NCBI RefSeq assembly: GCF_003991425.1
Contig: NZ_CP034346.1
Location: 5,059,501-5,123,500, forward strand
Source of the DNA: Paenibacillus lutimineralis
Lineage (GTDB): Bacteria > Bacillota > Bacilli > Paenibacillales > Paenibacillaceae
Direction: 5' to 3'
Length of the DNA: 64,000 nucleotides
The notes below the pieces were generated by a model. It did no database searches. It had not been told where the DNA came from and worked only from the letters and a program-made list of their open reading frames with translations. This document shows, piece by piece, positions 43,794 to 53,767 of the stretch. How positions within the stretch are numbered: the stretch's first letter is position 1; each line of letters opens with the position of its first letter. A program made the position numbers and the translations under genes.

Positions 43794-44486
43794 TTATTTA
43801 TGCTGTTTTAGTGCTTCCTGCGATACTTCCACCGCGAAATCACTGAAGGTTGACAGCACACTGTTATATTCATCGACATCCTGAACCCGGATTCCTTGTT
43901 GCAATTGTCTCACTACATCTTCAGGCAGCACACTCTCCATCGTCTCTACATCCAATTGGAAAAAAGTACGCAGTACTTTCTCTTCCTTGGGCGGTCCTTC
44001 GAATAAGCTCAAATTCCCATCTTTATCGATGCCCATATACCCTGATCGCTGACATTCCTCGGATAGTCCGACGATATGTTCCTCCAGCCAGACTTCGCCG
44101 AGCGCATCCACCCGTCCTGTCCATTCTGGATGCTCCTTGGCTAACACTTCAATTTCCTTCGCATCCATTATCCCGAGTACAGAGCGTTCCTCACCACAGG
44201 TATATATTTTATTTAAATGGACGATACGAGCTCGCTTCCGATCCTGAAGTCCCTTCACCCAATCAGCGGATGGCGGTCCAGCCTGATCCTCGGCATAGCT
44301 GCGCAGCTTGCCTAATGTCTCAAGCGCGAGCGGCTCACCGGTCATCAGCTTCTCAAGCTGACCAGACAGCTGCAATCCCATCCATGCCATTGCCGCAACC
44401 ACAGCGCAGGCACTAAAGGTCCAAATCGCACGTCTCCACCTTTTCCAGCGTCTTCTCCATTGCTTTTTTGTACGGAATATATTCAC
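43794..44486 (-). CDS. bofC: BofC-like forespore signalling protein
   Basis: A 230-residue protein with one N-terminal membrane anchor (WTFSACAVVAAMAWMGLQL) after a very basic cytoplasmic tail, and an extracytoplasmic part ending in the BofC C-terminal domain: YMGIDKDGNLSLFEGPPKEE, RTFFQLDVETMESVLPEDVV, GIRVQDVDEYNSVLSTFSDF. In B. subtilis BofC is secreted from the forespore and restrains SpoIVB, delaying pro-sigma-K processing. Its place near ruvAB is conserved. GTG start at 44486 with AGAAGGGG upstream; a right-tip remnant of the dispersed repeat lies immediately before that site. Confidence 0.85.
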   Translation of the reverse strand: MNIFRTKKQWRRRWKRWRRAIWTFSACAVVAAMAWMGLQLSGQLEKLMTGEPLALETLGKLRSYAEDQAGPPSADWVKGLQDRKRARIVHLNKIYTCGEERSVLGIMDAKEIEVLAKEHPEWTGRVDALGEVWLEEHIVGLSEECQRSGYMGIDKDGNLSLFEGPPKEEKVLRTFFQLDVETMESVLPEDVVRQLQQGIRVQDVDEYNSVLSTFSDFAVEVSQEALKQHK

Positions 44487-44502
44487 GATGATCCCCTTCT
44501 AT

Positions 44503-44527
44503 CGACCTTTTTGAACATGCACTAATA
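44503..44527. repeat. Right-tip remnant of the dispersed repeat
   Basis: TCGACCTTTTTGAACATGCAC matches the right end of copy D and lies just upstream of the bofC ribosome site. Confidence 0.55.
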
Positions 44528-44590
44528 TTGTGACCGATAGAATCAGGAAATATACGGCGTTACCACTCTGTACACTCTTCAGCAAACACA

Positions 44591-44617
44591 AAAAAACAGC
44601 CATTCGCAAATGACTGT
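44591..44617 (-). terminator. Terminator after tRNA-Pro
   Basis: ACAGTCATT and AATGGCTGT (minus strand) with a 4-base loop, followed by a run of T. It lies 7 bp beyond the tRNA 3' end. Confidence 0.88.
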
Positions 44618-44623
44618 TCTTGA

Positions 44624-44697
44624 TCGGGACGACACGATTTGAACATGCGACCCCCTGGTCCCAAACCAGGTGCTCTACCAAGCTGAGCTACGTCCCG
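44624..44697 (-). tRNA. tRNA-Pro (anticodon UGG)
   Basis: A complete cloverleaf on the minus strand. The acceptor stem is CGGGACG with CGTCCCG plus discriminator A, the D arm holds AGCTCAGCTTGGTAGAGC, the anticodon stem CCTGG/CCAGG encloses the loop TTTGGGA (anticodon UGG, complement 44661-44663), and the T arm carries GTTCAAATC. CCA is not encoded. A lone gene with its own terminator. Confidence 0.97.
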
Positions 44698-44790
44698 AAG
44701 TAAAAAACCTGACAAAGAAGATAATAGCACATCTAACTTGGTATAGCAAGAAAAAGTAGATTTAAAAAGAGAAAGGGGAATAATCACTCA

Positions 44791-46530
44791 TTATGCCCCT
44801 GACATAGCCACCCAATGTCCCTGAGATACCTCTACTAATCTGGAATGCTCGAGCTGATACTTGTCCGCCTCGGTATAATCGTAGAGGGCCGATCTCGTCT
44901 TTTTCGCCTCGATCTTCGGATCAGGTACGGGGATTGCTTTAAATAACGACTTGGTATATTCATGCTGCGGATTGGCATAGAGCTCCTCGCTCTCGGCGAG
45001 TTCCACGATCTTGCCCATATACATCACAGCTACTCGATCACTGATATGCTTCACCATAGAGAGATCATGCGCAATGAACAGATAGGTTAGTCCAAGCCGC
45101 TGCTGCAGCTCTTCCAACAGCTTGACGACCTGTGACTGAATCGATACATCAAGCGCAGAGAGCGGCTCATCACAGACGATGAACTTCGGTTCGACCGCAA
45201 GCGCACGGGCTATTCCAATCCTCTGTCTCTGCCCTCCCGAGAACTCGTGAGGATATCGCATGGCGAAGGATGGATCCAGTCCTACCATATCAAGCAGTTC
45301 CTCAACTCGCTTCTTCCGTTCCTCCTTGCCGCCGACAAGACGATGGACATCAAGCGCTTCCCCGATAATATCAAGCACCTTGAAGCGAGGATTCAGCGAG
45401 GCATATGGGTCCTGGAAGATCATCTGCATGTATCGACGCATCGTCTTCATCTCTGCTGAAGTTAGACGGTTCACCGCCATCCCCTGATATAATACTTCTC
45501 CCCCTGTTGGCTGATGAAGGCGAAGAATTGCCCGACCGGTCGTCGATTTGCCACTGCCTGACTCACCGACAAGACCCAGCGTCTCTCCCTCGCGGATATG
45601 GAAGCTGATATCATCGACGGCCTTCAATATGTTGCCTTTGCCCAAATCAAAATGCTGTCTTAACGATCTAACCTCAAGCAGAGAACTTGCACTATCCGAG
45701 TTCGTTATGATAAGAGGTGATGGCTTCGCCTTCTTCTTCTCGTTCAGCCTTGGCAACGCATTTAATAGCTTCAACGTATACGGATGAGAGGGCTTTTCGA
45801 AGATTTCCTCGGTCGTACCGCTCTCTACAATTGCCCCTTCCTTCATAACGACGACACGATCGCACATCCCGGCGACCACCCCAAGGTCGTGTGTAATTAA
45901 AATGATCGAGGTACCGAATTTCTCTTGGATATTCTTCATTAGACTCAAAATTTGCGCCTGAATCGTCACATCAAGTGCCGTCGTCGGTTCATCGGCAATC
46001 AGCAGAGCAGGACGGCATGCCAGGGCAATCGCGATCATAACCCGCTGACGCATCCCACCGGAGAATTCATGCGGATATTGATTATACCTGACTTCACTAT
46101 TGCGGATCCCTACCAGCTTGAGCATTTCCAGAGCCTGCTGCTTCGCTTCCTTCTTCGATAGTTGCTGATGCTTGATCAGACTCTCTGAGATCTGTTTTCC
46201 GATTTTGATGGTCGGATTTAAGGATGTCATCGGGTCTTGAAAGATCATGCCGATATCACGACCACGAATGCTTTCCATCTCTTTTTCCGAATAATCGGCC
46301 AGGTTTTTACCTAGAAAAGTAATCTCTCCTGCTTTCATATATGAAGGCGGCGAAGGCAGTAAACGCATAATCGAACGAGCCGTTACGCTCTTCCCGCTGC
46401 CGGATTCCCCTACAATCCCCAGGGTCTCTCCCTTTCTAACCTCGAAGCTTACCCCGCGGACCGCTTCAACTTCTTGTTCACGTGTCTGAAAGGAAACCGT
46501 TAAATCCTTCACTTGTAGTATAGTTTCCAC
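44791..46530 (-). CDS. Peptide-type ABC transporter, fused double ATP-binding protein
   Basis: About 579 residues with two complete oligopeptide-type ATPase modules, a DppD-like then a DppF-like half. Each has Walker A ([26 protein letters not shown]), Q-loop, signature ([34 protein letters not shown]) and Walker B ([26 protein letters not shown]), and the OppD/F C-terminal extensions. This fused layout is like GsiA. It should energise the two permeases encoded divergently next door. GTG at 46530 is chosen (AGGTG eight bases upstream); GTG at 46539 abuts that site. Substrate class (di/oligopeptide, nickel or similar) is not resolvable. Confidence 0.93.
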
Positions 46531-46582
46531 ATTAATCACACCTGTCTAGTATGTATTATCGTTAAATCTATCATTTCGAGTG

Positions 46583-46611
46583 TTGACATAAAAAACAACC
46601 TACCATAATAT
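46583..46611 (+). promoter_or_regulatory. Sigma-A promoter of the ABC permease operon
   Basis: TTGACA (46583-46588), 17 bases, TAATAT (46606-46611), about 50 bp ahead of the first permease. It lies in the intergenic region shared with the divergent ATPase gene. Confidence 0.85.
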
Positions 46612-46663
46612 ATACTATATCCATCGGAATAATGCAAATTGTTACATCAGGAGGGGAACTGTT

Positions 46664-48118
46664 GTGGAAGTTGCTAGAGCGACCAAAGAGCAAACTAGAG
46701 AATCGCATTTTATCCATTACATAAGTAACACCTATGCCAAAATGCTGCGGAATCCTTCCTATAAATATTTTTTACTAATCCTGGGAGCACCCGTTAATCT
46801 CGCTGTTCTACTATTTCACTTATCTCGCCGAAAGAATGACGTCTATCACACTCTACTTGACGAGACTCATCACGAATTACTTGAATCCGGCTATATGGGG
46901 CAACTATTAGAAGAGACGCGAGAGCAGCTACTGAGAAAACAGCAATTCTTCAAACAGAACGTAAGCGCGGAGCAGACGGAGCGCGAGGCCCATAAAATAG
47001 CCAAGGCCAGATTTCAGGAGGAGCTGACCGAGAGCACGAATCGCAAGCTACTACTTAACGGACAACAGAGATTAAGCTATGCCGAGACTTTTGCCTCGTG
47101 TATTCAGAACCGGGTCTTTCTGCTCCTCTCATTCATTCCTGGGATTCTTATGTATCTGCTGATCTTTCTCTATAGCAGCCCTTATGTGAAATATGTGTTT
47201 GAGAGATTGCTTATGAGTCTGCTCGTCATTATGGGTGTATCGGTGCTCGTCTTTACAATTCTTCATTTGTCACCGATGAATCCGGCAGCGAATATTCTCG
47301 GCGAGACGGCTACGGAAGAACAGATCGCTAACTTTAATAGAATCTATGGACTTGACCAGTCCTATCTATCCCAGCTATGGAACAACATCAAGGGAATCGC
47401 CACCTTCGATCTGGGCAAATCGTTCTCCGGCAATGAACAGGTGACAGCGACAATCGCCAGGAAGTTTCCAATTACCTTTACGCTGACGATGATCTCCCTG
47501 CTAATATCCATGATCATCGCCATACCCGTGGGGATTATATCAGCGATGAAGCGCAATTCCTTCTGGGATTATACGTTTATGTTTATTGCCCTGATCGGCT
47601 TGTCTATTCCAAGCTTCTGGCAGGGACTCATCTTCATATTGAATTTCTCGATCAAGCTTCACTGGCTGCCGGCCACGTATAATCCGCAGAACTGGCTGTC
47701 GATCATCATGCCGACGATCGTGCTAGGAACTGGGCTTACTGCATCAGTTGCCAGAATGACCCGTTCTTCCACCCTGGAAGTCATCAATGAGGATTACATT
47801 ATTACAGCCAAAGCTAAAGGGCTCAGCAAACGTCAAGTGCTCTGGAGACATGCGGTCCGCAATGCGATGATCCCGATCATTACCGTCATCGGCTTGCAAT
47901 TCGGCGGTATGCTGGGCGGATCGGCGGTCACCGAGAAAGTATTTAATATTAGCGGGATCGGCAGCTATATCGTAGATAAGCAATTTATTCCTGATATCCC
48001 GAGCATTATGGGCGGGGTTGTCTATACCGCAATCACGATATCGCTGATCAACGTCATTATCGATATTCTGTATGCCTTTTTCGATCCAAGAATCCGAACC
48101 AGGATGAAACAATATTAA
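46664..48118 (+). CDS. ABC transporter permease (DppB-like) with a long N-terminal extension
   Basis: 484 residues. From about 175 it is a standard DppB/OppB permease: YVFERLLMSLLVIMGVSVLV, HLSPMNPAANILGE, GKSFSGNEQV, SIPSFWQGLIFIL and the EAA-type loop LEVINEDYIITAKAKGLSKR. Residues 1-174 are additional: a membrane helix near 33-53, a charged and probably helical stretch (about 60-135) and a second helix near 150-171. Typical family length is 310-340, so the extension is unusual. GTG at 46664 follows GGAGGGG. It is the first gene of permease-permease-binding protein. Confidence 0.88.
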   Translation: MEVARATKEQTRESHFIHYISNTYAKMLRNPSYKYFLLILGAPVNLAVLLFHLSRRKNDVYHTLLDETHHELLESGYMGQLLEETREQLLRKQQFFKQNVSAEQTEREAHKIAKARFQEELTESTNRKLLLNGQQRLSYAETFASCIQNRVFLLLSFIPGILMYLLIFLYSSPYVKYVFERLLMSLLVIMGVSVLVFTILHLSPMNPAANILGETATEEQIANFNRIYGLDQSYLSQLWNNIKGIATFDLGKSFSGNEQVTATIARKFPITFTLTMISLLISMIIAIPVGIISAMKRNSFWDYTFMFIALIGLSIPSFWQGLIFILNFSIKLHWLPATYNPQNWLSIIMPTIVLGTGLTASVARMTRSSTLEVINEDYIITAKAKGLSKRQVLWRHAVRNAMIPIITVIGLQFGGMLGGSAVTEKVFNISGIGSYIVDKQFIPDIPSIMGGVVYTAITISLINVIIDILYAFFDPRIRTRMKQY

Positions 48119-48131
48119 AGCAGGTGTAGAT

Positions 48132-49616
48132 ATGATCAAGACGAACTTGAAAACTTCCGAGGAATACAGCAAAGCGATCTTCGCTCTGGTGGTCTCCCTT
48201 GCCTTATCCGTACTGCTGCTGCTGAACAGCTACAATTTCTCAGCACAGACAGTTAAGCCATATGTTTTTGCCGCTTTTGTTGCGTATGCGCTGTTCACTA
48301 TCATTCAGACGGCCATTACCCTGCTGATCAGGAGAGATATTCTCCTATACGGAGAGATTAGAAGCTTCACGCGTGCACTCGGCTATGTACAGTTGGCTAG
48401 TATTGTGACAGGGAATCTATTCACGGTCACTTCGGCTTTTTATCTCGTTAAGAAGCAGAGGACCCCGGAATATGCCCTGGCTGTATATACATTACTTACA
48501 GGTATCTTTGTCATTGCGGTATCGGCGCTCAATCTGTTCAAGCCGTATGTATCAGATACATTCCTGCCGGCGATGTTCATTCTAGTAATCGTAAGTCTAT
48601 TTCATCTCATCGCATTGCTGCTTGTGGCGAAGTATGTACGTGGTCACCAACCCATCGCCTCGTGGATGTCAGTCGTTGCTTGTCTACTAATCCTGACCGC
48701 CACTACTGGCAATCTATTTGCTCTACTGCTCGGCATCAATCTGCTGCTGAAGATCCGCAACCAAGGAAATCCCGCCTCGGCAAAGTGGGAGGATATCTGG
48801 GAGAAAATCACGAGAAATACGGCGGCGATGATCGGCTTGTTCTTTATCATTTTCCTGTTCTCGATATCGATCTGTAGCCTATTCACCTTCGATTACGCGA
48901 TGGCAACCGAGAATAACTACAGCGCTATATTGCAGCATCCGAGTCTTGCTTATCCGCTTGGTACGGACAATTTCGGCAGATGTCTATTCTCGCGCATCAT
49001 ATTCGGTGCACGTACTTCCCTGATTGTTGGACTGATCTCTACAGCGATCCCTCTCGTTATCGGCGGTATCCTTGGAGCGGTATCCGGCTATTATGGACGG
49101 CGCACCGACAATATCATTATGCGGCTGCTTGATATTCTATATGCGATTCCTGGGGTTCTGCTAGCGATTGCGATTATAGCCGCCTTCGGCGCCAACACCA
49201 TTAACCTGATCCTGGCGCTAAGCATTGGCTCCATTCCTACTTACGCCAGGACGATGCGGGCCAATGTACTGCTAGTCTCTACCTTCGAATATGTAGATGC
49301 TGCCCGAGCTTTCGGATCCAAAGATACTGCGATCATCTTCAAGCATATCGTTCCGAACTCGCTCGCACCCATGATTGTTAAAGCGACTTTAACGATCGGT
49401 GCAGCGGTGATCTCTACAAGCAGTCTCAGCTTCCTCGGCCTCGGCGTAGAGCCGCATATCCCGGAATGGGGAAATATTCTGAAGTTGGGCAGCACTTACT
49501 TGGAGACAAATTCTTACTTGGCTATTTATCCTGGGCTGGCCATCATCGCTCTCGTTCTATCTTTTAACTTTCTTGGAGACGGGCTTCGCGATGCATTGGA
49601 TCCTAAATTAAGCTAG
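48132..49616 (+). CDS. ABC transporter permease (DppC-like) with an N-terminal six-helix extension
   Basis: 494 residues. The C-terminal part from about 218 is a normal DppC/OppC permease: KITRNTAAMIGLFFIIFLFS, HPLGTD-like YPLGTDNFGRCLFSRIIFGA, and the ATPase-contact loop TFEYVDAARAFGSKD. Residues 1-217 form about six extra hydrophobic helices (IFALVVSLALSVLLLL, PYVFAAFVAYALFTII, ASIVTGNLFTVTSAFYL, LTGIFVIAVSALNLF, FILVIVSLFHLIALLLV, VACLLILTATTGNLFALLL). Canonical DppC is about 300 residues. The source of the extension is unknown. It is 13 bp after the first permease. Confidence 0.88.
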   Translation: MIKTNLKTSEEYSKAIFALVVSLALSVLLLLNSYNFSAQTVKPYVFAAFVAYALFTIIQTAITLLIRRDILLYGEIRSFTRALGYVQLASIVTGNLFTVTSAFYLVKKQRTPEYALAVYTLLTGIFVIAVSALNLFKPYVSDTFLPAMFILVIVSLFHLIALLLVAKYVRGHQPIASWMSVVACLLILTATTGNLFALLLGINLLLKIRNQGNPASAKWEDIWEKITRNTAAMIGLFFIIFLFSISICSLFTFDYAMATENNYSAILQHPSLAYPLGTDNFGRCLFSRIIFGARTSLIVGLISTAIPLVIGGILGAVSGYYGRRTDNIIMRLLDILYAIPGVLLAIAIIAAFGANTINLILALSIGSIPTYARTMRANVLLVSTFEYVDAARAFGSKDTAIIFKHIVPNSLAPMIVKATLTIGAAVISTSSLSFLGLGVEPHIPEWGNILKLGSTYLETNSYLAIYPGLAIIALVLSFNFLGDGLRDALDPKLS

Positions 49617-49754
49617 CTTCATATCTTTACCTGGCATTAGTTTTTACCATTTGCGGTTGGCCTTCATTTTCATCAGCTATGCGGAGGCTCGCCTCTCATT
49701 TGTCGTATGAGAATGAATCAATATATATAACAACAATTCAGGAGGGAACTATTC

Positions 49755-51578
49755 ATGAAAAAATCTTCTTTGCTTGCACTACTGCTTACGTTTGTGCTGG
49801 TGGCGAGCGGTTGCTCCGTGAAAACCAAGACAGATGTAGCAAGTAACCCAGATAACTCTGGAACAACACCTGCCCCGAACAATACCTCGGTGGATATTGA
49901 AGTGCTTAGCATGAGTTCAAATGAATCAGATATTAATATTATTCGCGACCAATTAACAAAGAATGGCTTCAATGTGAAGCTGAACATTCAACCAGACTAC
50001 GGCAGCTTCAAGGCACAGGAGGACGCGGGTAACTTCGATATCGCCCTGTCCAGCTGGACAACCGTTACCGGGAATCCCGATTATGCCGTTAGATCGCTGT
50101 TCAAGACCGGTGGCGACTACAGCATTATCTCTAATCCTGAGCTGGACAAGCTAATCGATGAAGCTGCTGCCCAGACGCCGGATCAATACACAGAGACCTA
50201 CAAGCAATTGGAACAGCATCTCGTATTTGACAAAGCTTATATTGCTCCGCTCTATATTTCCCTGAAGAGCCAGGCAGTGAACAAGGATGTGCTGAACCCG
50301 GATACTGTCCGACTCTCGAAATCCCGTTCCCTGGCTTGGGAGACCATTGATTTCAACGATATATCCAAACGGGACAAGGAGCCGCTTATTCTGACGCAAT
50401 CTGCTTCAGTCCTGACATCCCTGGACCCGATCAAAGGCAATGACGGATCGATTAACCAGCTTAACACAAATATGTATGTACGCCTGATTAATCTGACGGA
50501 TGATGACAAAATTACTTCTGACGGCTCTCTATCCTATAATCACAGCATCGCAGAAGGCAATACGGAATATTACTTCATCCTTAGAGACGACATTAACTTT
50601 GCCAAAATCGATAACAAAAAGGCTGTCGACACCGGTGAGCGCGTAGGTGCGGATGACGTCATCTTCTCCCTCGACCGGGCCAAGGACAAAAATTCGGTAC
50701 CAGATCACCGTACATACAGCCTGCATGAGCATATTAAAACCGTTGAGACCGTTACTGACCTGGCCGCTCTGGACAATGTGAAGCAATCTTCGGGCAGCGG
50801 CACAATCAAGGAAGCGCTGGAAGCTGGACTCGATACGAAGATCAAAGAACTCGTAGCTGACAAGAACCAAGCCGACAACAAAGCAGGTAAATACCAGGTT
50901 GTGAAGCTGACAACGACTGAGCCTTTCCCGCAAGTGCTGAATTACTTGGCACACCAGTCTGCCGGGATTGTCTCCAAGAAGCAAGTGGAGAGCATCAATA
51001 CTTATGATGTAGCCAAGTTCGATGTTAATAAGGATATTCCTTACGGGGATCAGAACACAGTTACGGAAGGAAGCAAATACAACAATACTCTGTATGCCAG
51101 CGGACCTTATATTTTGTCTTCCAAAAATGACTATGAAGGAATCTTCTACAAGAATCCTGGCTATCGCAAAGGTACAGAATCCGAACCAAAGATCTCAACT
51201 GTAAAAGTCCGCTTTATCGCCGATACCGATAGCGCTTTGTCCGCACTGCGCAGCGGTGAGATCCAACTCTTCTACGGTGTACCGGAGACGAAATATGATA
51301 CGATAGAGAGCGACAGCAAGCTGAAGCTGCAAAGTATTGAGAGCAACGCTGTATCCTATCTGCTGTTCAATACGAGCAATCGTGATGTAGCCAAGAGCGA
51401 TGATCTGAGAAAAGCCGTGCTCTACTCGATCAATCAAGATGAGTTCCTGCAATTCTATAACAACAAGAAGATCAAGGCGGTCTCGACTGTTAGTCCGATC
51501 GTCAAGACCGGCAATGAGCTGACGGCTGATCCGGCCAAGGTAAAGGAATACCTGGATAAATATAATGCGGCAAAATAA
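49755..51578 (+). CDS. Family-5 solute-binding lipoprotein with apparent circular permutation
   Basis: 607 residues with a lipobox ending at C20 (LVASGC) and a Thr/Asn/Pro-rich linker to about 45. Residues 46-202 match what is normally the C-terminal part of DppA/OppA proteins: VDIEVLSMSS, IIRDQLTKNGFNVKLNI, FDIALSSWTTVTGNPDY, SNPELDKLIDEAA and YIAPLY. Residues 207-607 then match the normal N-terminal and middle parts: PLILTQSASVLTSLDPI, GADDVIFSLDRAK (298-310), ASGPYIL, LRKAVLYSINQDEF, ending DPAKVKEYLDKYNAAK, exactly where the missing piece would begin. Length overall is family-typical. It probably binds a peptide-like ligand for the adjacent permeases. Confidence 0.88.
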   Translation: MKKSSLLALLLTFVLVASGCSVKTKTDVASNPDNSGTTPAPNNTSVDIEVLSMSSNESDINIIRDQLTKNGFNVKLNIQPDYGSFKAQEDAGNFDIALSSWTTVTGNPDYAVRSLFKTGGDYSIISNPELDKLIDEAAAQTPDQYTETYKQLEQHLVFDKAYIAPLYISLKSQAVNKDVLNPDTVRLSKSRSLAWETIDFNDISKRDKEPLILTQSASVLTSLDPIKGNDGSINQLNTNMYVRLINLTDDDKITSDGSLSYNHSIAEGNTEYYFILRDDINFAKIDNKKAVDTGERVGADDVIFSLDRAKDKNSVPDHRTYSLHEHIKTVETVTDLAALDNVKQSSGSGTIKEALEAGLDTKIKELVADKNQADNKAGKYQVVKLTTTEPFPQVLNYLAHQSAGIVSKKQVESINTYDVAKFDVNKDIPYGDQNTVTEGSKYNNTLYASGPYILSSKNDYEGIFYKNPGYRKGTESEPKISTVKVRFIADTDSALSALRSGEIQLFYGVPETKYDTIESDSKLKLQSIESNAVSYLLFNTSNRDVAKSDDLRKAVLYSINQDEFLQFYNNKKIKAVSTVSPIVKTGNELTADPAKVKEYLDKYNAAK

Positions 51579-51614
51579 ACAGCTAACCCTATAGCTTCAC
51601 AGCCAAGCAAGAAA

Positions 51615-51668
51615 AGAACCCTCGAATCCAGGCCATGACCATCATGGCAGATTCAAGGGTTCCTTATT
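51615..51668 (+). terminator. Intrinsic terminator after the binding protein
   Basis: AGAACCCTCGAATC and GATTCAAGGGTTCC with an inner CCATGA/TCATGG stem, followed by TTATTTT. Repeat copy F starts right after it. Confidence 0.9.
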
Positions 51669-51670
51669 TT

Positions 51671-51852
51671 AAGAGGTTGTTCAAAGAGTCCGCTTTTGAT
51701 CACGAAGTGAGTCAAGAAGCAAATTCGACATCGAATCTTGAATTCAGCCGGGCCTTCCGGTGCTCACGTACAAACTACGTACGCTCCGCTCCTCAGGCCC
51801 TAGCTTCATTCAACCTTCTCGGTGCTGAAAACCGGCCTTTTTGAACACGCAC
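51671..51852. repeat. Dispersed ~180-bp repeat, copy F
   Basis: A near-complete copy, from AAGAGGTTGTTCAAAGAGTCC to CCGGCCTTTTTGAACACGC. Apical arms are CGTAC and GTACG. Confidence 0.92.
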
Positions 51853-51857
51853 TTTAA

Positions 51858-52706
51858 TTATAAAATTTCAAATAACGGTGCCTCAGAAATAAAATGAACA
51901 GGTATATCAGGCAGCTTCGTCTGGAGCGATTCAGCTAAATATTTCATCCCCGGTGCCTCACTCGCCGCATGTCCTAGGATCACAAGTGCCCTCGGCTTGT
52001 TTTGAGAGATTGAATCCTTAACATATTCCGGCGTTTCCCATTCTGGTCCCTCGCCATATAGGATTAAATCGAGATTTTCGCGCTCAAATAGAGGAATCAC
52101 CGGATTTCCCCCGCCTCTATAGCCAACCAAAACTCCGATTCTCTCGCACGACATCGTGCGATCTCCGACGACACGCACTTGTCCCAAGCCTAGCTTGTTC
52201 TTAACATGAGCTGCTATTTCCGCAACCGTCAGCCCCGGCAGTCTGATCATCGCAGCAAATGAACGATATCCATCCAGTTCATCTAACCAGTCCAATTCCC
52301 GTACCAAGCCGTAGGTTATTCCATCGGGCTGGGAGCGGTGTACCCCATCATGATTGCGATAGATGGCAACTCCACTCTGCTCGATCATACTTTTCTTCTC
52401 ACGTACTACGTCTGTTCTTGCAATCTGTTCCCCCGGCTGAAAATGATTATAAAATAAACCTTCATGGGTAATCAGTAAATTGACTTCGAGGGACTTCGCC
52501 CTTTCAATGACATGCTGGCTGGCAATGAAAGCTGTGGCAATCCCCTTCACCGCTGTATCCGGGTCCCCATACTCGAGCCTGTCGACACCGTTCTCCGGCG
52601 AGCCTCCATCAGAGTCTGCCAACAGCTCTAATACCTCACGTATGCTTATACTCAATGGAATCGATACCCCCTGCTTCGTCTCACCTATATATGGTGAACT
52701 AATCAT
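51858..52706 (-). CDS. Nif3-like (DUF34) dinuclear metal centre protein
   Basis: A 282-residue protein of the Nif3/DUF34 superfamily. It has the typical GIATAFIASQHVIERAKSLE, the metal-binding THEGLFYNH and RNHDGVHRSQPDG motifs, and the C-terminal DLILYGEGPEW, LGHAASEAPGMKYLAE with its His and Glu ligands. It lacks the PII-like insertion found in longer Bacillus homologues. The family may act on metal handling or as a GTP cyclohydrolase-like hydrolase, but no function is firmly set. It lies between the ABC operon (convergent, across copy F) and the AraC gene. Confidence 0.8.
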   Translation of the reverse strand: MISSPYIGETKQGVSIPLSISIREVLELLADSDGGSPENGVDRLEYGDPDTAVKGIATAFIASQHVIERAKSLEVNLLITHEGLFYNHFQPGEQIARTDVVREKKSMIEQSGVAIYRNHDGVHRSQPDGITYGLVRELDWLDELDGYRSFAAMIRLPGLTVAEIAAHVKNKLGLGQVRVVGDRTMSCERIGVLVGYRGGGNPVIPLFERENLDLILYGEGPEWETPEYVKDSISQNKPRALVILGHAASEAPGMKYLAESLQTKLPDIPVHFISEAPLFEIL

Positions 52707-52798
52707 TGTATCTTTTCCTCCAACCTATCATGCTCGCAGACAAATAACCATAGCCACTTCTATCGGAAGTTTATCCAAATTACGCTTTGCCAGCGAGT

Positions 52799-53767
52799 TT
52801 ACAGTTTGCTTCGTCTTCTAAATTCATTTGGTGTTAGTCCAGTTATCCGTTTGAACACTTCGGAGAAGCTGGCATGCCTCTGATACCCTACATCGCAGGC
52901 AATTTCTCCAACTCCCTTCGCTGAATCCAGCAGCATTCGCTTCGCTCTGTCCGTACGGATTATCTGTACATACTCGGTAATCGTTAATCCATAAGCCCGT
53001 TTGAAATAGCTGGTTAATTTACTTGAGCTCATACAAGCGAGTCTTGTGAGATGCGCCAACGGGATCTGTTCAGCATAATACCGTTCAACATGGGTCTTTA
53101 CCCTGGCCAAGGCCTCCAAATCCTTACCGGGGATTTCATGAGCAGCATGGACCATAAGCTCATTCGTTCCCCACTGCATCACCAGTGAAATAATCTCCAG
53201 AACCTTGCCTTCATAATACATTCGCGCAAAATGATCTGTCGGCTTAGAAGCGCGAATTTGCTTTAATATCTGTTCCACCTCCGGGATGGTTCCCGTTCCG
53301 TCGAGCCTTGTGCAGATCGTAGGTAAAGCCTGGAAATCCTCTGAATATTTTGTCGGCAGAATCTCTTGGTAGAACTCTGGAAGCAAATTTATGCTAACGC
53401 CCCGAATAGGCATATTCTTCTGAAAAGTCTCTCTATGTATACTCTCATTACCCATGCAGGCGATCAGATTCTCTGTCCGTGAAGCCTTCCTGCTGCAAAT
53501 CAGATGGGCCAACGGTGATTCATAATACCCTAGACTTAAGGATGCTGGGTGCTCGCATAGAAAGGATATGTCACGATAAAATACAAGGTCGCATACGGCG
53601 ATCGCGTGCCAGCGATCTATGGGATATATCCAGTAGTACCCTCTTCCTTCTGTCGGGGCAAGGCAATAGCAATAACCGCTGCGTTTGAAGTTATGCTCCT
53701 TCTCCACAGGCATCAGCCCGATCCCGGACAAATAGGGCAGAAACAGCTTATCCAATATGTTCCCCAA
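52799..53767 (-). CDS. AraC family transcriptional regulator
   Basis: 322 residues. The C-terminal 100 form a double helix-turn-helix of the AraC/XylS type: HVERYYAEQIPLAHLTRLAC, SSSKLTSYFKRAYGLTITEY and GEIACDVGYQRHASFSEVFK then TGLTPNEFRRR. The N-terminal domain (cysteine-poor, with CYCLAPTEGRGYYWIYPID) is not a clear cupin; it could sense a small ligand. TTG start at 53767 follows GGGAGG. It is divergent from a MATE exporter across 174 bp that contains a Fur box, so it probably controls that exporter, in the style of siderophore regulators such as Btr or YbtA; this link is inference. Confidence 0.88.
   Translation of the reverse strand: MGNILDKLFLPYLSGIGLMPVEKEHNFKRSGYCYCLAPTEGRGYYWIYPIDRWHAIAVCDLVFYRDISFLCEHPASLSLGYYESPLAHLICSRKASRTENLIACMGNESIHRETFQKNMPIRGVSINLLPEFYQEILPTKYSEDFQALPTICTRLDGTGTIPEVEQILKQIRASKPTDHFARMYYEGKVLEIISLVMQWGTNELMVHAAHEIPGKDLEALARVKTHVERYYAEQIPLAHLTRLACMSSSKLTSYFKRAYGLTITEYVQIIRTDRAKRMLLDSAKGVGEIACDVGYQRHASFSEVFKRITGLTPNEFRRRSKL

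Follow-up and report, generated by a model that had tools for sequence, protein, structure and literature searches.

A putative circularly permuted SBP_bac_5 lipoprotein of the GisD family in Paenibacillus lutimineralis

Substrate-binding proteins of family 5 (SBP_bac_5) deliver ligands to ABC importers, and the blocks of their sequence follow one another in an order that is the norm for the family. A gene for a lipoprotein of this type (P0001), found in a stretch of 64,000 nucleotides of the Paenibacillus lutimineralis genome (the window), seems to break this rule. Behind its lipid anchor come the motifs that normally close a DppA- or OppA-like protein, followed by those that normally open it. 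The original prediction took the gene for a circularly permuted family-5 protein, and the motifs quoted in its favor are all present as written. The locus raises the question of whether one fold has been permuted, to which transport system it belongs, and what follows for the attachment of the protein to the membrane. Our reading, to which we give a probability of roughly 0.85, is that P0001 is a permuted lipoprotein of the GisD family that captures the substrate for a dedicated ABC importer; this estimate does not extend to the ligand.

Order of the two blocks

SBP_bac_5 (PF00496) is the sole Pfam-A match of P0001, with 134.4 bits against a cut-off of 32.4, and no NCBIfam model reaches its own cut-off on this protein. 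The match is split into two stretches, the better of which places residues 264-602 on positions 11-275 of the 368 in the profile. In a PF00496 search of the organism's own genome, window positions 50544-51566 correspond to profile positions 11-277 and window positions 49920-50117 to positions 301-366. Because the N-terminal stretch falls on 301-366 and the later one on 11-277, the chain of P0001 opens with the closing part of the profile. Nearly the whole profile is present, in an order reversed with respect to the family norm, order not being a Pfam criterion. Indeed, when the start and the end of the profile are compared as partners of the N-terminal block, it is the end to which this block aligns. 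The same picture emerges from a phmmer comparison with PDB chains, in which residues 59-166 resemble 5u4o 378-489, residues 221-318 resemble 3tpa 19-112, and residues 448-600 resemble DppA 181-335; no close PDB chain was found by this program (best E 1.2e-11).

A more sensitive comparison was made with hhalign, by which an alignment of 64 permuted proteins (51 kept by the program) was set against a profile of ten canonical proteins, namely, DppA, OppA, NikA, and GsiB of Escherichia coli and six paralogues from the genome of P0001. In the native order, residues 217-603 align with residues 36-366 of the DppA precursor (E 7.2e-28, score 217.8) and residues 55-179 with DppA 388-516 (E 2e-11, score 94.9), and two additional weak alignments (E 0.09 and above) were treated as noise. 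Once the blocks are reordered, a single main alignment of 456 columns covers DppA 36-516 and runs across the seam (E 1.9e-39, score 304.3). It puts residue 46 of P0001 at about DppA 372 and the cut at about DppA 370-372. Comparisons of single sequences by phmmer move in the same direction. The score against GsiB rises from 40.6 bits in three pieces to 49.1 bits in one piece (GsiB 184-489) and that against DppA from 37.3 to 44.1 bits; the values for OppA (21.6 to 21.8) and for one paralogue, own2 (20.0 to 20.3), hardly change, and the other six canonical proteins have no match to P0001 in the native order. The top phmmer score among the ten belongs to GsiB, the glutathione-binding protein of E. 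coli. GsiB and DppA, canonical SBP_bac_5 proteins of cluster C, are thus members of the same profile family that carry the opposite block order and align completely when the blocks are exchanged.

As judged from its sequence, P0001 is an SBP_bac_5 protein whose halves are circularly permuted, and the circular permutation put forward in the original prediction is borne out by Pfam, by both kinds of phmmer comparison, by hhalign, and by the homologues described below. Neither the E-values nor the conservation of the permuted order leaves room for chance. The block boundaries first proposed, residues 46-202 and 207-607, were nearly right, except that residues from about 180 to 216 form a joiner outside both main alignments (Table 1). 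The N-terminal block on its own does score as a distinct stretch, as would be expected if two unrelated or separately folding pieces had been fused, but this is very improbable, since the two blocks match different, complementary portions of the profile that do not overlap, and after reordering the alignment runs unbroken across the seam with a score close to the sum of the parts (304 versus 218 + 95). Complementarity and the alignment across the seam likewise rule out the N-terminal block as a separate extra domain. An artefact of assembly, frameshift, or annotation can be dismissed, because the open reading frame (ORF) is intact and all 299 homologues examined, from many independent genomes, share the permuted order.

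Table 1. Features of the importer block and of P0001 (positions in the window)
Feature	Position	Strand	Basis
Fused OppD-OppF-type ATPase, 582 aa, two ABC_tran domains	44791..46539	-	Pfam, NCBIfam
OppB-type permease, 484 aa, N-terminal extension of ~174 aa with two hydrophobic segments	46664..48118	+	Pfam, NCBIfam, hydropathy
OppC-type permease, 494 aa, N-terminal extension of ~215 aa (48132-48776) with six hydrophobic segments	48132..49616	+	Pfam, NCBIfam, hydropathy
Putative permuted SBP_bac_5 lipoprotein gene, P0001, GisD family, 607 aa	49755..51578	+	ORF, Pfam, hhalign
Predicted signal peptide and lipobox VASG|C, residues 1-20, lipid-bearing Cys20	49755..49814	+	Read from sequence
Thr24-Lys25, just past the lipid cysteine	49824..49829	+	59-row alignment
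N block, residues 47-179, similar to the C-terminal part of canonical family-5 proteins	49893..50291	+	hhalign, Pfam profile 301-366
Val104, at the place of DppA Asp436	50064..50066	+	Val in 80/80 loci
Joiner, residues 180-216, from canonical end to canonical beginning	50292..50402	+	Between the two main hhalign alignments
C block, residues 217-603, similar to the N-terminal part of canonical proteins (DppA 36-366)	50403..51563	+	hhalign, profile 11-277

Conservation of the order and of the importer block

A protein search from P0001 gave 1519 homologues among 7997 candidates scored, and the best 120 of the 1519 have a query coverage of 96-100% and an identity of 75-97%. A second search, from a staphylococcal member, gave 219 homologues, with the best 120 listed. 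A scan of genome contigs gave 116 loci, 80 of which were kept (68-97% identical). The order of the blocks was surveyed in 299 proteins, consisting of 219 protein identifiers (P0001 included) and 80 locus proteins, with some near-duplicates among them. The canonical profile was used with the HMMER filters off, and an automatic rule was followed by reading of the exceptional rows. The rule alone called 273 of the 299 permuted. In all of the 26 remaining rows the late block precedes the early one: 23 have a weak extra match between the signal-peptide region and profile positions 4-61, and in three the N-terminal block starts at position 386-387, just below the threshold of 390. The permuted order is thus kept in 299/299 homologues, and the ten canonical controls, which also built the profile, all give a single span (10/10). 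A run with default filters returned 243/299 permuted, 2 in canonical order, and 54 without a match (P0123 and P0127, described below, among them); in the unfiltered run, two exceptions and 24 further rows were resolved by inspection.

The family is common in the Paenibacillaceae, where 92 of the 295 sampled genomes (P. lutimineralis included) have a full-length match and five have pieces only. The 92 genomes hold 93 full-length matches, one with an internal stop, and one genome (G276) has two full-length copies. The pieces (G189, G215, G223, G237, and G281), three of which contain a stop, are probably decaying copies or the result of contig breaks. Among 398 genomes of Bacilli, a full-length match is present in 34 and a partial one in one further genome. 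At a threshold of 1e-30, a phylum-wide set of 398 genomes yields four matches, all in Paenibacillaceae, P. lutimineralis among them. Phyla beyond Bacillota were covered by the protein searches and the genome-contig scan only. All 80 loci are labelled Bacillales except one labelled Arthrobacter (L091). Horizontal transfer to Actinomycetota was rejected as its explanation: Arthrobacter is GC-rich, the stretch has 38.5% GC and is sister to a Sporosarcina row, and a contaminant is probable. A homologue labelled as the fungus Irineochytrium (P0036) is probably a contaminant sequence as well. In a tree of 32 proteins, six rows of staphylococcal type cluster together (100/100) and are set off by a long branch.

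The permuted gene is the last of a block that comprises an ATPase on the opposite strand, two permeases, and the binding protein. This four-gene block is present in the same orientation in 79/80 loci, and in the exception (L086) it is cut by a contig end. Both permeases carry N-terminal extensions that E. coli DppB and DppC do not have, with hydrophobic segments estimated by a simple hydropathy count. When the OppC-type extension alone was searched in the same draw of 398 Bacilli genomes, it was found in 34, which are exactly those with a full-length permuted protein (Fisher p 5e-50, shared ancestry being ignored); in the three genomes of staphylococcal type among them the match spans only about residues 106-205 of the 215. 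The co-occurrence of permuted protein and extended permease is that of a fixed module and is no proof of a functional need. Just past the end of the ATPase gene lies a tRNA-Pro (TGG) gene (window 44622-44698, - strand). In 18/80 loci an uncharacterised ORF is located directly downstream of the binding protein on the same strand (for example, L097:11841-12401, +), which may encode an accessory component within one branch of Paenibacillus.

Kinship with GisD and the putative ligand

A homologue labelled Staphylococcus aureus (P0123), a cluster of 4289 sequences, is colinear with P0001 in one alignment (242/612 identities, 40%) and is equally permuted. The entry for SAUSA300_0203 (GisD) in PMC5020093 gives a signal of 18 residues, an LSG C lipobox, and a mass of 66 kDa. 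The signal length and lipobox of P0123 fit this entry, and its precursor has a computed mass of 67.0 kDa; P0123 may accordingly be linked to GisD by signal length, lipobox, and mass only. Given the full-length colinear homology, which includes the permutation, P0001 is a predicted member of the GisD protein family. Other full-length homologues are labelled S. gallinarum, S. warneri, and Mammaliicoccus (P0130, P0136, P0138, and P0152). Three clusters of 873 residues (P0125-P0127), one of them labelled S. aureus, have an OppC-type permease that runs in frame into a permuted protein; they are without a lipoprotein signal, and in P0127 the two proteins meet at FLG, a short stretch that both have.

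In S. aureus, the gisABCD-ggt locus is laid out as ATPase, permease, permease, binding protein, and ggt, and gis mutants grow poorly on glutathione (GSH) or its disulfide (GSSG) as sulfur source (PMC10355420); growth on GSSG was reported to depend only on Gis (PMC12510641). S. aureus and P. lutimineralis share the genes for the ATPase, both permeases, and the binding protein. Three diverged copies of the locus, from Staphylococcus-like genomes (L140-L142), have the same four-gene block followed by a long ORF, which in L140 is a gamma-glutamyltransferase (Ggt) by Pfam and which in L141 and L142 was judged to be one from the similar start of the ORF. Unlike S. aureus, P. lutimineralis has no match to Ggt (PF01019) in its genome (0/1), and for this reason P0001 is filed in the GisD protein family and not in the five-gene system. 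Its permeases are also longer, 484 and 494 residues versus 448 and 390 in L140, which reflects longer extensions. Complete Gis systems have been reported only in the S. aureus complex (PMC10355420), although the full-length homologues named above carry labels of other staphylococci and of Mammaliicoccus.

The two branches differ in the motifs of the pocket region. A regular expression for these motifs, which proved too strict, matched 156/213 proteins and let 57 escape. Of the 156 matched proteins, 142 have WTTVTGNPD and 13 have W[TM]TVFGDPN. For the second motif 154 proteins are shown, of which 141 read NDGSIN and 13 mostly IAP[SN]VY. A further clue concerns Asp436 of DppA, which contacts and pairs with the amino group of the dipeptide ligand (PMC12136057). 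At this column the residue is Val in 80/80 permuted loci, whereas five of the ten canonical proteins have Asp (DppA, OppA, and three paralogues from the genome of P0001), GsiB and one paralogue have Ser, NikA has Ala, and two have a gap. Because of this Val, a DppA-like mode of ligand binding seems unlikely for P0001. The loss of the charge pair formed by DppA Arg383 and the DppB scoop loop was rejected as a signature of the family, since the nine canonical proteins other than DppA lack the Arg383 loop just as P0001 does, and the scoop-loop residues vary among the controls.

The most likely ligand of P0001 is glutathione, or else a small peptide or sulfur compound that resembles it. Glutathione is the best single guess for this strain, with a chance that we put at no better than even. 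A quite balanced alternative, about as probable as its contrary, is that the Bacillales branch takes up another ligand and that the S. aureus type has re-specialised as a side branch. It agrees with the motif differences and the long branch of the staphylococcal rows, and also with the lack of a Ggt match in the genome and among the other ORFs flanking the 80 Bacillales loci; on the other side, the whole transporter is homologous to Gis, both branches have Val at the position of the Asp of dipeptide binders, and enzymes other than Ggt and ChaC could degrade glutathione, ChaC being likewise without a match in the P. lutimineralis genome (0/1). Two further sources of information on the substrate were dropped. 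At Rfam gathering scores, window positions 44000-53000 contain one tRNA only, with no sulfur riboswitch or T-box, and nothing was found in six loci; conserved neighbors are scarce, the commonest other family near the block occurring in just 18/80 loci.

The lipid anchor and the meaning of the permutation

The signal peptide and lipobox predict that P0001 is exported. By sequence, its chain sets out inside the canonical C-terminal half and continues to the canonical end, from which a joiner of about 37 residues leads to the canonical beginning and on to the place where the chain set out. In the glutathione-binding protein GbpA, A380, S430, and D432 are contacts of GSSG in the C-terminal lobe (PMC3295651). 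As the cut at about DppA 370 falls shortly before these positions, the new N-terminus and the lipid anchor would lie in the C-terminal lobe, which agrees with the proposal of the original prediction that the protein is anchored through the lobe that is C-terminal in its relatives. By the alignment, a linker of about 25 residues would tie the anchor to this lobe instead of the N-terminal one. As was also proposed, the gene may have arisen by duplication and trimming, a process of which no intermediate was seen, and the protein may be reoriented on its permeases. Homology and the published S. aureus gis mutants suggest that the lobes of P0001 close around the ligand, that the ligand then passes to the pair of N-extended permeases, and that the fused ATPase drives import.

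Natural permutation is known from another class of binding proteins. TpMglB-2 (Tp0684) is described as a naturally permuted glucose-binding lipoprotein of "Type Ic / Cluster Bc", in which the canonical N-terminal strands of a Type I / Cluster B sugar-binding fold have moved to the C-terminus, and tethering is among the reasons that its authors consider for this topology (PMC4990184). Like P0001, it is a tethered ABC binding protein with a natural circular permutation. P0001 is outside the Cluster B sugar-binding family, SBP_bac_5 being its sole Pfam match, and since TpMglB-2 is of a different family the two permutations are presumably independent events. For family 5 and GisD no earlier report was found. 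The word stem "permut" is absent from the main texts of PMC10355420, PMC12510641, and PMC5020093. Among the open-licence papers listed by searches that combined circular permutation with binding-protein terms and by searches for GisD or GisABCD, none reports a permuted family-5 protein in its title or abstract opening, and the sections seen of a preprint on permutation detection (PMC12667903) contain no passage on ABC binding proteins. This agrees with the earlier statement that no permuted SBP_bac_5 protein had been described, with the qualification that permutation is known from a different class of binding proteins and that P0001 is one of a large family with a studied S. aureus homologue.

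Whether the permutation matters for function is a question on which the evidence is divided. It may equally well be a neutral accident, by which fold, docking, and function have stayed canonical and the place of the anchor is irrelevant given the long linker. The linker, residues 21-45, is mostly variable, TpMglB-2 binds its ligand and closes on it despite its permutation (PMC4990184), and the joint inheritance of one block alone would yield the co-occurrence of permease and permuted protein. Against this, Thr24 is invariant and Lys25 is present in at least 90% of the 59 rows of the homologue alignment, in which Cys20 is invariant too, and the full-length permuted protein always comes with the extended permease (34/34). 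A loose regular expression for the motif past the cysteine matches 174/219 proteins, a pattern too loose to be relied upon. The more far-reaching proposal sets the GisD family apart as a permuted subclass of the cluster C binding proteins, one whose mechanism includes attachment of the anchor to the C-terminal lobe; the motif past the lipid and the extra permease helices would together hold the protein in a non-canonical orientation. This is rather doubtful at present; if true, the GisD family would use an orientation that is unused by canonical family-5 proteins.

The predicted membership of P0001 in the GisD family, as a permuted binding lipoprotein of a dedicated importer, has several consequences. 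The permuted order explains the piecewise profile matches of GisD-family proteins, and modelling GisD on canonical templates without reordering would give a wrong structure. Gis-like systems would range wider than the one reported in PMC10355420. A natural circular permutation exists in the large family-5 class, spread over the Bacillales and present in an S. aureus-labelled GisD homologue, and it may serve as a natural experiment on whether delivery to the permease depends on where the lipid anchor is attached.
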